Positions 4,056 to 32,696 of a DNA stretch of 32,696 nucleotides are shown in pieces. The stretch lies in IMG/VR virus record IMGVR_UViG_3300027747_003096, positions 1 through 32,696 of that record; one strand, 5' to 3'. The position numbers and the translations under genes were made by a program. A model generated the notes under the pieces. It was not told the DNA's origin, ran no database searches, and was given only the letters and a program-made list of their open reading frames with translations. The DNA comes from a virus. Position 1 is the first letter of the stretch; the number at the start of each line of letters is the position of its first letter.

Positions 4056-5281
4056 AAAAAATGGATTTAAATTCGGAAGAACCATTGATGGATGTATCGG
4101 CAGATCCAGTCGGTACAAACACAAATACTTCTTTAGCCTCTTATTATCAAGAAAAGCTCTATGAAATGAAGGCTTTTACACATCCTCTTTATTCTGACAA
4201 TAAGCCTATTAATATAATTTATGAAAAACAATTTTACGGAAGAGTTAATCTAGCCCATCTTCCGGTAATCACAGACTCTACTAAAATGAAATCCATGATG
4301 GATGGCAAAGGAAATGAAATAAGTCTACAAAATTTCGTATTTGATGCTTATAGAGATTTTATTTCTTATTGGGATTATCTTAAGAAAATAAATAAAGCTT
4401 CTAAAAGCGGGATTATACAGACAGTAAACGCCAAATTTGCTTCATTGAATGCCGGTAGAATGTATTTTTATTATATGAGTAGTCTGTTCAAGAGTATTGA
4501 AGATTATATAGAAATAAAGAAAATAAAAATTAAAAGCTTTAATGATTTTGTCGTTCAATTTATAAACTATGTTGATGCTGTGACACCCGCAACTCCAATC
4601 ACATTTTCCAGCTACATTGGATCACGATTGGCAGATCCACTTATATCTGGTTTGTGTTTTGATGTTAACTTGTTTGATGCTTCCGACGATGGATTCAAAT
4701 ATTCAACCTTCTTACAAGATCCAAATTATGCTTTGTTTAAAAAAACAGCAATGAAATTTGGATTTATTCCAGATAAACAGGTTCCTTGGAGATTATGGGC
4801 AGATATTGATTCACCAGCAATGAAACCGTATATGGATGCTTATCAATTATCACAAGATAACATCTATGATTTAAATTATATTACAGCAGACAGTTATGAT
4901 CTTGAATTGGTAAGATTTTATTTATTACAATTTTATAATACTCATATTTTGAATACTGGAACCCTAATAGAGCCACAATTTAAAATATGCGAAAAAACTG
5001 GCGCTACAATTGTAAATTACAAATACATAGAATTACAATTTATAAATACTGAAAACGTTCAAAATAAGCAATTTGATGACTTATTCATGAAACTTTATGT
5101 TTATGTGAAAGCAAGAGAAAATAATTACGGTTGGGATAAATCAAAATTCGAACACGTCGTCTCAAACTTTATTCAAATTAAAGAAGCCCTTGACATGTCT
5201 GCCGGGATGAAGTATATTCGACCCTTGGTTAAAGTACCGTCGGTTGCCCCCCGGCAACAACGGAACTTCCGTTTTTATTGA
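4052..5281 (+). CDS. unknown structural-block protein
   Basis: A 409-residue soluble protein that I do not recognise. It starts in a 4-base overlap with the upstream hub-like gene and so is very likely co-translated with it. It is rich in Tyr, Phe, Asp and Asn, with helices around 80-180 and no membrane segment or signal peptide. Position suggests a baseplate or tail component. Its last 30 codons carry a promoter (5190-5218) and two tandem hairpins (5243-5273), so the end of this gene is also the junction between the structural and replication units. Confidence 0.55.
   Translation: MKKMDLNSEEPLMDVSADPVGTNTNTSLASYYQEKLYEMKAFTHPLYSDNKPINIIYEKQFYGRVNLAHLPVITDSTKMKSMMDGKGNEISLQNFVFDAYRDFISYWDYLKKINKASKSGIIQTVNAKFASLNAGRMYFYYMSSLFKSIEDYIEIKKIKIKSFNDFVVQFINYVDAVTPATPITFSSYIGSRLADPLISGLCFDVNLFDASDDGFKYSTFLQDPNYALFKKTAMKFGFIPDKQVPWRLWADIDSPAMKPYMDAYQLSQDNIYDLNYITADSYDLELVRFYLLQFYNTHILNTGTLIEPQFKICEKTGATIVNYKYIELQFINTENVQNKQFDDLFMKLYVYVKARENNYGWDKSKFEHVVSNFIQIKEALDMSAGMKYIRPLVKVPSVAPRQQRNFRFY
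5190..5218 (+). promoter_or_regulatory. sigma70-like promoter for the polymerase unit
   Basis: TTGACA at 5190-5195, a 17-bp spacer, then TATATT at 5213-5218. It lies inside the end of the structural gene, 70 bases before the polymerase start. Unlike most promoters here it has no TGn extension. Predicted transcripts begin near 5225, just before two hairpins. Confidence 0.6.
5243..5277 (+). terminator. tandem hairpins followed by T-run
   Basis: The first stem is GTTGCC/GGCAAC (5243-5248 with 5253-5258, CCCC loop). The second is AACGGA/TCCGTT (5259-5264 with 5268-5273), followed by TTTATT. It probably terminates the structural operon. It lies downstream of the 5190 promoter as well, so it could also attenuate polymerase transcription. 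The T-run is imperfect. Confidence 0.55.
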
Positions 5282-5288
5282 GGGCTTC

Positions 5289-6467
5289 GTGTCTTTTATT
5301 ACTCTTGATGATAAAGAATGGTGTAAGGGTATTTACACCGATGGAAAGCTTTACTTTAACAAGTTTCCAAAAGACCTAAAACAAACTTGGAAATACAATC
5401 CAGTATTTGATGATGGTGAGATCGACTTCGCTCATCTTTGGTGCGAGGGTAAATCTATTGAACAGGTTTGTCCAGAAGAATTAAAGCCTCAACTTGATCT
5501 CTACAACAAGAAGCTTGACGCTTTTTCACGTTCTTTTGGTGAAGCAAAAGTCGATCTTAATGATAATTGCTTTTTTGATCTTGTTCCACAGCAATTTCTT
5601 TTAGAGTTTTGTGATCTAAAAAGCAAGATTGTTGATAGTGTTTTTGTAAATTATCCCAGATCTATCAATTATAAATTCTACTTAAAACTTGAAAAATTGA
5701 TCTGTAAGATCAGATCAAGAAAACTAAAATTAGATCTAAAAACAAAAGATCTAAATAGGATCTTAAAAACAAGAGAATTTATTAAATCACTACAAAACTA
5801 TTCAAGTTCTATTAGTTACAATCAGTTTGGTACTAAAACAGGTAGATTAAGTACTCAACCAAAAAGTTTTCCGATCTTAACTATGAATAGCGATTACAGA
5901 TCAATTGTAAAACCAACAAATAACCAGTTTGTTGAAATCGATTATAATGCTGCAGAAGCAAGAACATTATTGGCTCTTGCTGGAAAGGAACAACCAGAAC
6001 AAGACTTACACGATTGGAATGCTAAAATTTTGGGTATCAGCCGTGAACAAGCGAAGAAGGGATTATTTGCTTGGCTTTATGGTTCAAGGAATGAGGAATA
6101 TTCCAAGTTCTCAGATATCTTTAATATCAAGAGTGTCCTAGACAAATTTTATGATGGCAAAGTTGTCCAGAATCCTTTTGGTAGAAAAATTGAAGCAGAT
6201 CCATTCCACGCCTTAAATTATTTGGTACAATCTACAACTTCTGATATGGTTTTAAGGCAGATATTGAAAGTTGATGAATACTTAGATAATAAGAGCAGTT
6301 TTGTTTCTTTTATTATTCACGATGCCGTATTTTTGGATACTACCGATAATGAACGAGAGATCATTAGAGAGATTGCTAGCATTATGGCTAACAATGATTT
6401 TGGTGTGTTTCCTGTTAACGTATCTATTGGAAAAGACTTCGGATCAATGGAAAAGATTAAAATCTAA
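5289..6467 (+). CDS. family A DNA polymerase without exonuclease domain
   Basis: A 392-residue protein with the family A polymerase core: TKTGRLST (residues about 180-187), motif A VEIDYNAAEARTL (catalytic Asp near 217), motif B REQAKKGLFAWLYG (about 251-265) and motif C IIHDAVF (about 342-348, catalytic His-Asp). The GTG at 5289 follows GAGGG in TTGAGGGCTTC; a TTG at 5244 is in frame but lies within the hairpins. Family A phage polymerases such as T7 gp5 are about 700 residues with a 3'-5' exonuclease; here the N-terminal 170 residues show no exonuclease motifs. It is either a gap-filling/repair polymerase or a reduced replicase. A second, family C polymerase lies at the end of the window. 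Confidence 0.88.
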   Translation: MSFITLDDKEWCKGIYTDGKLYFNKFPKDLKQTWKYNPVFDDGEIDFAHLWCEGKSIEQVCPEELKPQLDLYNKKLDAFSRSFGEAKVDLNDNCFFDLVPQQFLLEFCDLKSKIVDSVFVNYPRSINYKFYLKLEKLICKIRSRKLKLDLKTKDLNRILKTREFIKSLQNYSSSISYNQFGTKTGRLSTQPKSFPILTMNSDYRSIVKPTNNQFVEIDYNAAEARTLLALAGKEQPEQDLHDWNAKILGISREQAKKGLFAWLYGSRNEEYSKFSDIFNIKSVLDKFYDGKVVQNPFGRKIEADPFHALNYLVQSTTSDMVLRQILKVDEYLDNKSSFVSFIIHDAVFLDTTDNEREIIREIASIMANNDFGVFPVNVSIGKDFGSMEKIKI

Positions 6468-28763: not shown

Positions 28764-29072
28764 ATGACACTTGATTATCAGGCAATTCGAAAAATGACAA
28801 AAGAAGTTTCAACTGTTAAGAAACAGGAAGTTCCTTTGACAGAAAAAGAACTAAAACGAGTTCAGTATTATATTGAAGATATTGAATACAATGTTTTAGG
28901 ACTAGCGGAAGCAGGAAAAGATAAGTTTTCATACGATTGTTCCAAGTTGTCACAAAAGATGTTTCAGGAACTAGCGGTCCAGTTTAAGAACAAGAATCCA
29001 TTATTTTACGTAACAACAAATTCTGTTACACAATTACTTACTGTTGAATGGCACGGCAAAAACGAAGCTTAA
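28764..29072 (+). CDS. small unknown protein
   Basis: A 102-residue protein, ATG 28764 after GAGGAATAA. The first half is helical (TEKELKRVQYYIEDIEYNVL); the end has alternating strands (PLFYVTTNSV, QLLTVEWHG). Not recognised. It overlaps the next gene by 25 bases. Confidence 0.5.
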   Translation: MTLDYQAIRKMTKEVSTVKKQEVPLTEKELKRVQYYIEDIEYNVLGLAEAGKDKFSYDCSKLSQKMFQELAVQFKNKNPLFYVTTNSVTQLLTVEWHGKNEA

Positions 29073-29419
29073 AATTTGAAGTTGGTGATATTGCCATCTA
29101 TTCAAAGCCAAGAGATTTGGATCCACAACACGTAGACCAATATGCGCCATATTGGATGATTCGTTTACGTTATGCTCGTCCTTTTTACATGGAAGAGGCA
29201 AATAACGTTGGAATCATAATGGAAGTTTACCCTTCACAAGACATTTTTCTTCAAAGAAGAAAAGAAAATAATGTGTATATCTGGTATTCACAGCAGACAG
29301 GTAAAGAATACATAATGTTCGAAGGTGAGTTGACAACCGGCGAGGAGTATGCTACGATGGGATCCTACACGGACAGCTTCCTAGCAGATCCATTTAAGAA
29401 AAAGGCGCGAAATAAATGA
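29048..29419 (+). CDS. SH3-like small protein
   Basis: A 123-residue protein from ATG 29048. FEVGDIAIYSKP at the start, NNVGIIMEVYPSQD in the middle, then VYIWYSQQTGKEYIMFEGEL, which is shared with the gene at 29891 (GYIWYSQVDGKEY). A longer central insert separates the first strand from the rest. The start is not near a clear ribosome site; coupling to the upstream gene is likely. It contains the promoter at 29330. Confidence 0.58.
   Translation: MARQKRSLKFEVGDIAIYSKPRDLDPQHVDQYAPYWMIRLRYARPFYMEEANNVGIIMEVYPSQDIFLQRRKENNVYIWYSQQTGKEYIMFEGELTTGEEYATMGSYTDSFLADPFKKKARNK
29330..29358 (+). promoter_or_regulatory. sigma70-like promoter
   Basis: TTGACA at 29330-29335, 17-bp spacer ending TGC, TACGAT at 29353-29358, inside the 29048 gene. 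It could drive the genes from 29416 through the dnaE fragment and SH3-like gene. Confidence 0.6.
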
Positions 29420-29814: not shown

Positions 29815-29886
29815 ATGACTGAACGTGTTAAGTCCGTGATTCCGTTTGTGAATCTTCACGGACATTCTACCTTTTCTATTAGGTGA
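29815..29886 (+). pseudogene. orphan 5' fragment of the dnaE-type polymerase
   Basis: ATG 29815, with AGGAG upstream, gives 23 residues and a TGA at 29884-29886. It reads VKSVIPFVNLHGHSTFSIR, the start of a PHP domain (H-x-H-S-x-F-S). The full gene, 1.2 kb downstream, starts with a related N-terminus (FVGLHAHSGFS) and then continues. The fragment stops at almost the same place at which the full copy is interrupted, i.e. just after the metal-binding motif. It is best explained as the old 5' end of dnaE, cut off when the SH3-like gene, the endonuclease and a second N-terminus were inserted. Confidence 0.7.
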
Positions 29887-29890
29887 GTAA

Positions 29891-30148
29891 ATGAAATACA
29901 AAGTTGGTGATCTTCTTCTTATAAAAGATATTCGTTTTAGTTCTCTCTCTCACCTTCCCCTTCCCCTTCCCCCTCGCCCTCTCCCTCGCCTTCACCCTCT
30001 CCTTTGTCTTAATAATACACTTGGTATTATTACCGAAGTTGAAGAAAGTTCAACAGAAAAATATAATGGTTATATTTGGTATTCACAAGTTGATGGGAAA
30101 GAATACTATTTCTATGAAGACGAAGTTGATGGTGAGGTGATTAGTTAA
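29891..30148 (+). CDS. SH3-like small protein with proline-rich insert
   Basis: An 85-residue protein from ATG 29891. MKYKVGDLLLIKDIRFSS, then a Pro/Leu-rich insert of about 24 residues (HLPLPLPPRPLPRLHP), then NNTLGIITEVEESSTEKYNG and GYIWYSQVDGKEYYFYEDE. The insert is coded by a 70-base pyrimidine tract that breaks the barrel between its first strand and the GII strand. The MKYKVGDL start matches the gene at 24658, the end matches 29048. It begins five bases after the dnaE fragment. Confidence 0.55.
   Translation: MKYKVGDLLLIKDIRFSSLSHLPLPLPPRPLPRLHPLLCLNNTLGIITEVEESSTEKYNGYIWYSQVDGKEYYFYEDEVDGEVIS
29941..30010 (+). repeat. pyrimidine tract (CT/CCTTCC-type) within coding sequence
   Basis: Sixty-five of 70 bases on the plus strand are C or T, with CCTTCCCC-type repeats (about 29953-29971) and CCCTC repeats after. 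This contrasts with the A/T-rich neighbours. Such tracts are slippage-prone and could form triplex DNA. Confidence 0.8.
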
Positions 30149-30161
30149 ATTAATTTAGTAC

Positions 30162-30190
30162 TTTACACACCCATAGAAAAGTTATATCAT
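30162..30190 (+). promoter_or_regulatory. promoter overlapping the endonuclease leader hairpin
   Basis: TTTACA at 30162-30167, a 17-bp spacer, TATCAT at 30185-30190; no TGn extension. A start near 30197 would fall at the end of the 5' arm of a hairpin, ACTACT TACTC (30191-30201) with GAGTA (30205-30209) and AGTAGT (30217-30222), whose 3' arm covers part of the AAGGAG ribosome site. Read-through transcripts would carry the whole hairpin; promoter transcripts would lack its 5' arm. Confidence 0.55.
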
Positions 30191-30224
30191 ACTACTTACT
30201 CTATGAGTATGTAAGGAGTAGTGT

Positions 30225-31028
30225 ATGATAAAAAATGTAAATTCGGATCTTTCTCACAAAAGACAGCAAGCAAGACATAAAATTTGTAAAAATTGTAATA
30301 TTGAATTTTGTTCTATAACTCCAACTGGATATAGAACTCCCAAATATGTTTGTTGTACAAAAGAATGTGCGAATTCTTTAATGACTGAAAAAAGAATGGC
30401 AAATAATTCTTATGTGAGAACCGAAGAAGCGAAAAGAAAAGAATTTGAGACAAGAAAATTAAAAAATCCTCAATATGGAGAAAAACAAAAACTTCTTTTA
30501 CAAAAAAGAGAAGCAAGAGGTCTTAATAAATACGACAAGACAAAATATTCACATTGGGCACAAGTACCAGAAAATAAAGAATATCTAAAAAATATTCTTA
30601 AAAATAAAGTTGTTTCTGATGCATCAAAAAAATTGATGAGTTTGAGTAGAAAAAAGTTATTACAAGAAAATCCTTCACTTATATATTCAAGTGCTAATGG
30701 TGGTAAAAGAAAGGATTTAAACGATTTCTATTTTAGAAGTAATTGGGAAGCAAACTACGCCAGAATATTAAATGAATTAAAAATTGATTGGGAATATGAG
30801 AAACATTCGTTTTTACTATCAAATGGAACTCATTATACTCCCGACTTTAAAATAAGTGATAATAAGTTCGTAGAATTAAAAGGATGGTTTGATGATGATT
30901 CAAAAGTCAAAATTGAATTGTTTATCAAAGAGTATCCGCAGTACGAACTTGACTTGATAGACGAGGAGAAGTATTATACTCTCCGCAACCTGTTTAAACA
31001 CAAAATTTCTAACTGGGAAGGAAGATAA
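30225..31028 (+). CDS. PD-(D/E)XK homing-type endonuclease with zinc-binding N-terminus
   Basis: A 267-residue protein, ATG 30225 after AAGGAG. An N-terminal Cys set (ICKNCNIEFC...YVCCTKECANS) is a probable zinc finger. A long basic middle (about 70-150) follows, then the nuclease core: YFRSNWEANYARIL, DWEYEKHSF, YTPDFKISDNKFVELKGWFD. That order (E..., PDF, ExK) is that of phage PD-(D/E)XK endonucleases such as cyanophage F-CphI and of related free-standing enzymes. It is more A/T-rich than the polymerase gene it precedes and sits between two partial copies of the dnaE start, a typical mobile position. It is not in frame with dnaE, so it is not an intein. Confidence 0.72.
   Translation: MIKNVNSDLSHKRQQARHKICKNCNIEFCSITPTGYRTPKYVCCTKECANSLMTEKRMANNSYVRTEEAKRKEFETRKLKNPQYGEKQKLLLQKREARGLNKYDKTKYSHWAQVPENKEYLKNILKNKVVSDASKKLMSLSRKKLLQENPSLIYSSANGGKRKDLNDFYFRSNWEANYARILNELKIDWEYEKHSFLLSNGTHYTPDFKISDNKFVELKGWFDDDSKVKIELFIKEYPQYELDLIDEEKYYTLRNLFKHKISNWEGR
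30949..30977 (+). promoter_or_regulatory. sigma70-like promoter for dnaE
   Basis: TTGACT at 30949-30954, 17-bp spacer, TATTAT at 30972-30977, in the endonuclease 3' end. The dnaE start at 31031 follows with GGAAGGAAG. It lacks a TGn extension. Confidence 0.5.
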
Positions 31029-31030
31029 AA

Positions 31031-32696
31031 ATGACTGATACAAATGAGAAAGGAGGTTCCAAGGAAAGGCTCGTTTCGCGTATTAAGTTCGTCGGACTTC
31101 ACGCACATTCGGGCTTTTCCTAATGGAACCATTTTTGATGGTCTTGGCTATCCAGACGAACATATGGATTTTGCCTATGAAAATGGAATGGATGCTCTTG
31201 CCCTAACAGATCACGGCACTTGTGCGGGGCTTTCGTATCAGGTTCTTCACGCACAAAAGTTGAAGGAGAAAGGAATTAACTTCAAGCCAATCTTTGGTGT
31301 TGAAGCTTATTTCCATCATTCTATCGCAGAATGGAAACAGATCAAGGAAAGCCAAAAGGTTGCCAAGAAGGCAGCAAAGGCTGACGAAGAAGAAGTAACA
31401 CTCACAGTTGAAGATGAGGGTGAATCAAAGACTTCAAACAAGAATGTCCTGAATAAGCGTCGTCACCTTGTTCTTCTGGCGCAGAACCAAACAGGTCTAA
31501 ATAATATTTTCACCCTGATTTCAAAGTCATATCAGGGCGATAACTATTATCGTTTTCCTCGTATTGATTACGAGATGCTGAAAGAGTATAATGAAGGCAT
31601 TATTGCGTCTTCTGCGTGCCTTGGAGGCATTTATGCTGGTGACTATTGGGAAAACTACGAAAGTGGCCCAAAAGTCATTCTAGACGCTATGCGAGAGACA
31701 ACCAAGAAGATGATGGAAATCTTCGGTGATCGTTGGTATGGCGAACTTCAATGGAATGATTCCAAAGACCAGATGATGTTGAATAAGTATATTATTCAGC
31801 TTTCTGGTGAATTTGGTTTCAAGACCATTTCAACAGCCGATTCACACTATCCACGTCCTGAAATGTGGAAGGACCGTATTCTTTACAAGAAGATCGGTTG
31901 GCTGAACAAGAAAGATGCTGACAAGGTGCTTCCAGCTTCTGTTGATGAAGTTGGTTATGAACTATATCCAAAAAATGGTGATCAGATGTTTGCGTCATTT
32001 GAACACTATTCAAAGATTCACGATATGACGTTTGACCGTGAAGTGGTTCTTCAATCGCTTCACGAAGCACATAATATTGGCATGAACCGTATTGAAAGTT
32101 TCTTGCCCGACAATACAGTTAAACTTCCAACTTTCGTTGTGCCAGAGAATTCAACTGCTGACGATGAATTGCGTCGTCTTTCTCTTGTTGGTCTTGCGAA
32201 TCTAAAACTGCGTGCTCAAAAGAAGCAGGAAGAATATACTGCTCGTCTTGAACGTGAACTTGATGTAATTAATCAAAACAAGTTTTCGCAATACTTCCTT
32301 ACAATGAAAGCTATTGCTGACAAGGCAAATCAATCTATGATCAGTGGTCCCGGTCGTGGTTCGGGCGCTGGTGCTCTTGTATCCTATCTTCTTGGTATTA
32401 CACAGATTGATCCGATCAAGTGGGAACTTCAATTTGAGCGTTTTATGCGTTCAAATCAAAAGGATTATCCCGATATCGACTTTGACGTCGCCGATCCAAT
32501 GACTCTTAAAGAAACTCTTATTAAAGAGTGGGGTATGGATAAGGTTGCGCCAATCACAAACTGGAATACCCTACAACTTAAATCGCTTATCAAGGATATT
32601 AGCAAGTTCTACGAAATTGAATTCTCCGAGGTCAATGATGTAACAAGCAAAATGATGCTTGAAGCTACACCACTTGCCAAGCAGAAGAATGGCATC
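31031..32696 (+). CDS. DnaE-type (family C) DNA polymerase, broken near its 5' end; 3' end outside window
   Basis: ATG 31031 (GGAAGG upstream) codes 30 residues ending FVGLHAHSGFS, the PHP metal motif, then hits TAA 31121-31123. The +1 frame carries on without a stop from 31131 (IFDGLGYPDEHMDFAYENG, ALALTDHG) to the window end. Removing exactly ten bases, 31121-31130, gives HAHSGFS-IFDGLGYP, which is how I remember phage relatives; a plain +1 shift would leave three extra residues. Later motifs: PGRGSGAGALVSYLLG and PDIDFDVAD (two catalytic Asp, near 32470-32492). The full polymerase is over 1000 residues in known cases. So either recoding/bypassing restores the frame, the product starts elsewhere, or the gene is damaged. 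Confidence 0.78.

Follow-up and report, generated by a model that had tools for sequence, protein, structure and literature searches.

The locus considered here raises the question of how a phage could make its DNA polymerase III from a dnaE gene whose reading frame is closed by a stop codon after 30 codons. It lies at the downstream end of the IMG/VR virus record IMGVR_UViG_3300027747_003096, a phage contig that was analysed over its full length of 32,696 nucleotides (nt) and is referred to as the window. The dnaE 5′ end in question (MTDTNEKGGSKERLVSRIKFVGLHAHSGFS, 31031–31120; plus strand, like the other parts of this dnaE locus) begins at ATG 31031, comprises an N-terminal extension and the PHP motif LHAHSGFS, and ends with the serine codon TCC (31118–31120). 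This codon is directly followed by TAA (31121–31123), the first triplet of a 10-nt gap (TAATGGAACC, 31121–31130) whose last triplet, the presumed landing site, is ACC. Behind the gap the dnaE body (IFDGLGYPDEHMDF..., 31131–32696) resumes at ATT 31131, in +1 phase relative to the preceding end, and continues up to the end of the contig. The answer proposed, to which a probability of roughly 0.82 is assigned, is that a homing cassette has split dnaE, has supplied a replacement for its 5′ end, and would stay translatable by programmed translational bypassing.

The same architecture is found in three further contigs (L002, L003, and L004; L-numbers denote comparison contigs or loci), and the arrangement is confirmed as real, being due neither to chance nor to an assembly error. 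In L002, a contig identical to the window, the dnaE body is an intact open reading frame (ORF) of 1120 amino acids. An earlier note on this DNA, made from the letters alone, had correctly described a second, interrupted dnaE start, while the key feature, putative stop-plus-gap recoding with a conserved hairpin, had escaped it.

The Gap at the PHP Codon

A survey of about 200 dnaE loci revealed 24 distinct loci in which a gap follows directly upon the serine codon of the motif H-x-H-x-x-(F/R)-S. Gap and adjacent nuclease gene occur together at 20 loci, the nuclease only at 10, the gap only at 4, and neither at 160 (Fisher p = 3e-16). Scanning for a stop codon behind HSGFS brought up four additional dnaE lineages with an interruption at this codon (L131, L132, L134, and L136), three of which carry a homologous nuclease directly upstream. 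The dnaE gene of L136 (about 11640–13300) contains further interruptions, which appear to be inteins.

Fifteen short gap variants were distinguished, with lengths of 5, 6, 7, 8, 9, 10, 11, and 12 nt, covering all three phases. Every one of them starts with a stop codon (TAA, TAG, or TGA) placed directly after a TCN codon, and in every one the final triplet of the gap matches the take-off serine codon in at least two positions, the full serine codon being repeated in 8 of the 15. The mean match is 2.07, compared with 0.4–0.67 at neighbouring offsets, and in a random-draw test on 14 families none of 200,000 draws reached the observed value. Undivided relatives such as L058 (HSGFSIFDG) show that the ancestral protein is regained if precisely the gap is skipped. 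The +1 frame is blocked in L131, L136, and L145, and the gap of L166 holds two in-frame stops; because the needed frame is blocked by stops, these four genes are unreadable by simple frameshifting or readthrough. Simple +1 frameshifting was rejected as a general explanation, the gap lengths falling in all phases and the +1 frame being closed in several variants, and stop readthrough was rejected likewise, the phase-0 gaps including double stops (L166, L303).

Two further lineages (L216, which equals L302, as well as L301 and L303) have gaps of 38 and 42 nt after HAHS, three codons upstream of the position of the short gaps. The take-off codon TCG is again followed by a stop, the landing triplet is TCG or TCA, and a strong hairpin lies inside the gap; in L303, a second in-frame stop within the gap argues against readthrough. 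No adjacent nuclease was found in the upstream sequence examined at L216 and L301.

The DnaE protein of L006 is 62% identical to that of the window, and its gene has the same kind of 5′ end, interrupted as TCC TAATGGTGCC ATT; the differences between the two replacement ends are biased to third positions. At L006, neither a nuclease nor a stub, that is, an orphan dnaE start left upstream, was detected, so that its interrupted copy must be expressed on its own. In L228, L134, and L263 a gap is present, too, and a stub or nuclease was not detected. The sequences flanking the gap on either side are under coding constraint, and the bodies consist of long intact ORFs, which argues against the gapped genes being dead or being translated as two polypeptides by termination and re-initiation. 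It is true that an ATG stands two codons past the gap in L131 and L136 and that split genes are tolerated by T4-like phages (PMC2988022), but a start codon near the gap is not conserved across the family, and the hairpin, stop, and landing pattern would be left without a reason for conservation; such an explanation is considered very improbable.

The Hairpin around the Take-Off Codon

The take-off region of gapped genes is base-paired with the N-terminal extension lying 57–70 nt upstream, mostly through helices of 10–14 base pairs. A significant helix of this kind is present in 17 of 19 gapped genes versus 4% of 170 ungapped ones (p = 1e-12), and folding of the segment from −82 to the gap end with RNAfold gave a mean z of −5.3 for gapped and +0.33 for ungapped genes. 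Since z is about 0 in nuclease-bearing genes without gap, the hairpin is associated with the gap rather than with the nuclease. The hairpin of the window (31055–31130) has a folding energy of −38.8 kcal/mol and a z of −6.09 (RNAfold, dinucleotide shuffles); its 5′ arm (31055–31073) pairs with 31110–31121 and 31124–31130, the 3′ arm containing the take-off codon and almost the whole gap.

All 19 pairs of the window helix are retained in L006, two of them by two-sided changes and two through G-U, and the differences between the two phages within the gap are explained by hairpin compensation. Across 13 families, compensatory changes occur in 9 of 12 pairs; covariation amounts to 0.483 versus 0.186 after shuffling, with none of 500 shuffles reaching the observed value. 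The arms of the alignment used for covariation were registered by hand, which favours pairing, and the unregistered helix and z tests with their ungapped controls consequently weigh more. On the unregistered alignment RNAalifold returned a weak consensus, because the 5′ arms stand at differing distances. A further common feature is an internal GGAG motif, found in 15 of 15 gapped genes tested (4.1 expected from the amino acids) versus 6 of 169 ungapped genes. It is located 66–80 nt before take-off and about 8–15 nt before the 5′ arm of the hairpin, in varying reading frames; in the window it occupies 31052–31055, within AAAGGAGG.

Proposed Translation across the Gap

According to the mechanism proposed, the ribosome would stall when the serine codon UCC occupies the P site and the stop codon has entered the A site. 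The peptidyl-tRNA-Ser would release and re-pair at the end of the gap, by which the ancestral protein (...HSGFS-IFDG...) would be obtained; the junction peptide predicted by bypassing is HAHSGFSIFDGLGYPDEHMDF. As the hairpin closes again in the wake of the ribosome, it would draw the mRNA through and drive the ribosome across the gap. Take-off is at codon 26–35 of the gapped genes, and the N-terminal extension would then sit in the exit tunnel.

Several observations weigh against this reading. The landing triplet of the window, ACC, matches UCC in two of three positions, and the +1 frame is open through its gap, as it is in L006, L132, and L144, so that the window copy, taken alone, fits a +1 shift. 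The gap variants are partly non-independent, and some of the landing matches could descend from a TCN duplication made during repair. Ten nuclease-bearing dnaE genes are without a gap, which is thus not obligatory. The DnaE-body tree used below was built by a quick method, and both the tree and the codon statistics were drawn mostly from metagenomic contigs. Special recoding of the replacement end was rejected: stub and replacement end share 1–5 of 9 codons, the average for unrelated dnaE genes encoding the same peptide being 3.3, and the difference is not above that seen between unrelated genes.

With the same homing cassette assumed, the window dnaE might instead be made by programmed +1 frameshifting at UUU_UCC_UAA_U, by which three residues would be added (GFS-NGT-IFDG). 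For the window alone this is possible. UUU_Ynn has been reported to be especially prone to +1 shifts in bacteria, and UCC_UGA is the usual shift site of antizyme (PMC5009743); read in the +1 frame, the gaps of the window and L006 would encode NGT and NGA, one of the changes being synonymous. The homologous elements at the same codon, however, have gaps in all phases, some of them with +1 stops, a shift would explain neither the match of the landing triplet nor the length of the ancestral product, as in L058, and the differences between window and L006 are already accounted for by the hairpin. Frameshifting is rated as unlikely, and bypassing is preferred.

Stubs, Undivided Alleles, and Mobility

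The orphan stub of the window (29815–29886; 23 codons, MTERVKSVIPFVNLHGHSTFSIR*) corresponds to the beginning of a phage dnaE gene as far as the PHP metal motif, and its ATG at 29815 is preceded by a CAGGAG ribosome site. Both the fragment and its own ribosome site had been pointed out in the earlier note and are confirmed. Homology to dnaE stops near ATT 29878–29880, the region presumed to be the cut position. The stub is also present in L002 and L003, in the latter with one synonymous change and with diverged flanking genes, and in L004 (4767–5018) a remnant is left, which consists of the first codons only and runs in frame into the SH3-like gene (MAQRKTSKIK-YQVGELLL).

Of 30 loci with a nuclease, 12, the window among them, have a stub ahead of the nuclease gene, and these stubs break off at the same PHP codons, with end points after HSTF, HTG, HDGFSI, or HTGR. 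Among 164 control loci there were two, one of which (L072) is a genuine stub beside another homing nuclease. At L156, two consecutive dnaE stubs stand upstream of the nuclease (−2017 and −1161, counted from the dnaE body), which gives the impression of two successive invasions. Near relatives with undivided dnaE and without nuclease exist, and in L155 and L166 a stretch 1.1–1.2 kilobases upstream shares 91% identity with the start of the sister virus's undivided dnaE; these stub-like stretches stop at the PHP codons, 7–13 nt before the body. The comparison with relatives lacking the endonuclease, which the earlier note had called for, and the recurrence of stubs in many lineages give support to its interpretation of the locus as a footprint of homing.

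On the DnaE-body tree, at least 17 changes were counted for the gapped state and at least 18 for the presence of the nuclease. Sister viruses differ in gap state, as is the case for L155 (gap and nuclease) and L222 (undivided), L166 and L242, L148 and L243, and L136 and L223. The sporadic presence of the nuclease among near-identical hosts, beside a single target site, is as would be expected of a free-standing homing endonuclease.

According to the proposed course of events, the nuclease would cut dnaE at the PHP-coding DNA, between the codons for H-x-H-S-G-F-S and x-F-D-G, and repair would insert at the cut the nuclease gene, in the window together with an SH3-like passenger, and a complete replacement dnaE 5′ end, while the old 5′ end would remain as stub. 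The replacement end, being of different sequence and carrying at the target 10 extra nt with the stop first, would presumably block cutting of the cassette's own site.

A different account of stub and body would be an intron spanning about 29882–31130, brought up as an alternative in the earlier note, or some other RNA processing that joins the stub to the body or removes the gap. In its favour, the stub of the window ends at the very codon with which the body begins again, but in most viruses the stub ends short of that codon. An Rfam search that included relaxed E-values gave no intron match and thus no group I or group II catalytic core, a gap of 5–12 nt is below the size of any known self-splicing intron, and the gapped genes without detected stub or nuclease (L006, L228, L134, and L263) would have to work alone. 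Splicing is regarded as extremely improbable, and the homing cassette with a bypassed gap is retained as the explanation.

The Nuclease and Neighbouring Genes

The free-standing PD-(D/E)XK nuclease of the window (30225–31028, 267 amino acids) matches Pfam family PF05367 (Phage_endo_I) with 32.4 bits against a cut-off of 29.1, and residues D207, E217, and K219 are invariant in alignments of its homologues. It is built of an N-terminal cysteine-rich part, a middle domain, and a C-terminal domain resembling T7 endonuclease I. With an AlphaFold model (predicted local distance difference test (pLDDT) 80.9, predicted template-modelling score (pTM) 0.44), Foldseek retrieved T7 Endo I (E 2.4e-3) and I-Bth0305I (E 6e-3) at probabilities near 1. 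A scan with the nuclease alignment identified about 24 homologues matching over most of the length, and wherever the contig continues they are situated immediately 5′ of dnaE. INPHARED, which covers cultured phages, yielded no full-length relative, and a search of bacterial genomes gave distant relatives only. The C-terminal WEG(K/R) codons of the nuclease supply the sequence GGGAAGG, which may serve as ribosome site of dnaE in most members. A hairpin over the ribosome site of the nuclease itself was not significant in the window (z −0.9).

Nuclease-bearing dnaE genes without gap mostly have changed codons at the site (HDTFS, HMHSTYS, SHFS, HNHCTFS). The simplest account would be that the PHP-coding site is the target and that either the gap or altered codons confer immunity; L282, whose nuclease is more distant and whose HSGFS is unaltered, does not fit this account well. 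A GIY-YIG/NUMOD3 homing nuclease is encoded at L072, about 1.2 kilobases upstream of dnaE, behind a stub and an SH3-like gene that are both homologous to those of the window, and the replacement dnaE end is without gap. Two unrelated nuclease families thus occupy the same dnaE site.

The SH3-like small gene (29891–30148), carried as a passenger on the left side of the insert, precedes the nuclease gene in the order that had been given in the earlier note and is now substantiated by the ORFs and the PF05367 match. A Pfam search with the SH3-like gene remained without match; it seems to be a paralogue of gene 29048–29419 further upstream, and the junction between stub and SH3-like gene is common to the window and L072. 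A low-complexity repeat of the type CTTCCCCTCGCC is contained in it (29945–30002), with varying length among L002, L003, L004, and L072. The dnaE body itself comprises PHP and polymerase NTPase domains (Pfam PF02811, PF07733; PHROG 405), and the same phage has an ORF for a family-A-like DNA polymerase (5244–6467), recognized by eye from its translation.

Relation to Known Systems

Gene 60 of phage T4 is the textbook phage case of translational bypassing, the other basis of knowledge being yeast mitochondria. The dnaE loci share with T4 gene 60/mobA (PMC3014915, PMC5009743, PMC11194080) a stop directly after the take-off codon, a matching landing codon, an mRNA hairpin upstream of or around take-off, an adjoining homing nuclease by which the gene is divided, and an insert thought to be protective against cleavage. 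Hairpins forming behind the ribosome have been reported to guide sliding in T4 (PMC11194080), and a protective role of the 50-nt insert against the neighbouring nuclease has been suggested (PMC5009743). The present system differs in that dnaE, a PD-(D/E)XK nuclease, and a serine take-off codon replace the topoisomerase gene, HNH nuclease, and glycine codon of T4; the gaps have 5–12 nt (38 and 42 in two lineages) rather than 50; the 3′ arm of the hairpin contains the take-off codon and the gap; many lineages are affected; and a duplicate 5′ end is supplied while the old one persists as a stub. Several short inserts bypassed by ribosomes are also known as the byp elements of Magnusiomyces capitatus mitochondria (PMC8211752), whereas here a phage, a single target codon, and a linked nuclease gene are involved, and the comparison is one of design.

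A nuclease sporadically present beside a conserved replication gene that is interrupted recalls the free-standing homing endonucleases of T-even phages and the split nrdA/mobE of Aeh1 (PMC2988022). Unlike in those split genes, the cassette here brings a replacement 5′ end, and the gene would again encode one protein. Profile and fold searches relate the C-terminal catalytic domain to T7 endonuclease I/PF05367 and I-Bth0305I, from which the present enzymes differ by the added cysteine-rich N-terminal and middle domains and by the location of their genes directly 5′ of dnaE. In logic only, the combination of a nuclease with the replacement of a broken essential gene resembles engineered home-and-rescue and Cleave-and-Rescue drives (PMC7968924, PMC7951863); it is natural, however, found in phages, restricted to a partial 5′ replacement, and provided with a recoding gap.

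The kind of phenomenon is already known from bypassing and from mobA/gene 60. New, as far as could be checked, are the gene and nuclease involved, the short gap embedded in a hairpin, the combination of stub and replacement 5′ end, and the recurrence; no paper on bypassing in a phage DNA polymerase III was found, in a search that covered few subscription papers and is not proof of novelty.

Significance

For the family as a whole, the view somewhat favoured from comparison of the loci is that of widespread phage home-and-replace elements, in which the polymerase gene would be broken at the PHP motif and rebuilt with a new 5′ end, with stop-plus-gap immunity, a hairpin-driven short hop, and many origins at one codon. 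Gene callers would label such dnaE genes as frame-shifted or truncated. With more than 15 natural gap variants in one gene, a comparative data set on ribosome hopping is at hand, which bears on the stop requirement, the landing rules, and the role of the hairpin. The family also lends weight to an idea put forward for T4, namely that bypassed inserts originate as a shield from the homing nuclease next to them, and natural pairs of empty and invaded alleles open this idea to testing.

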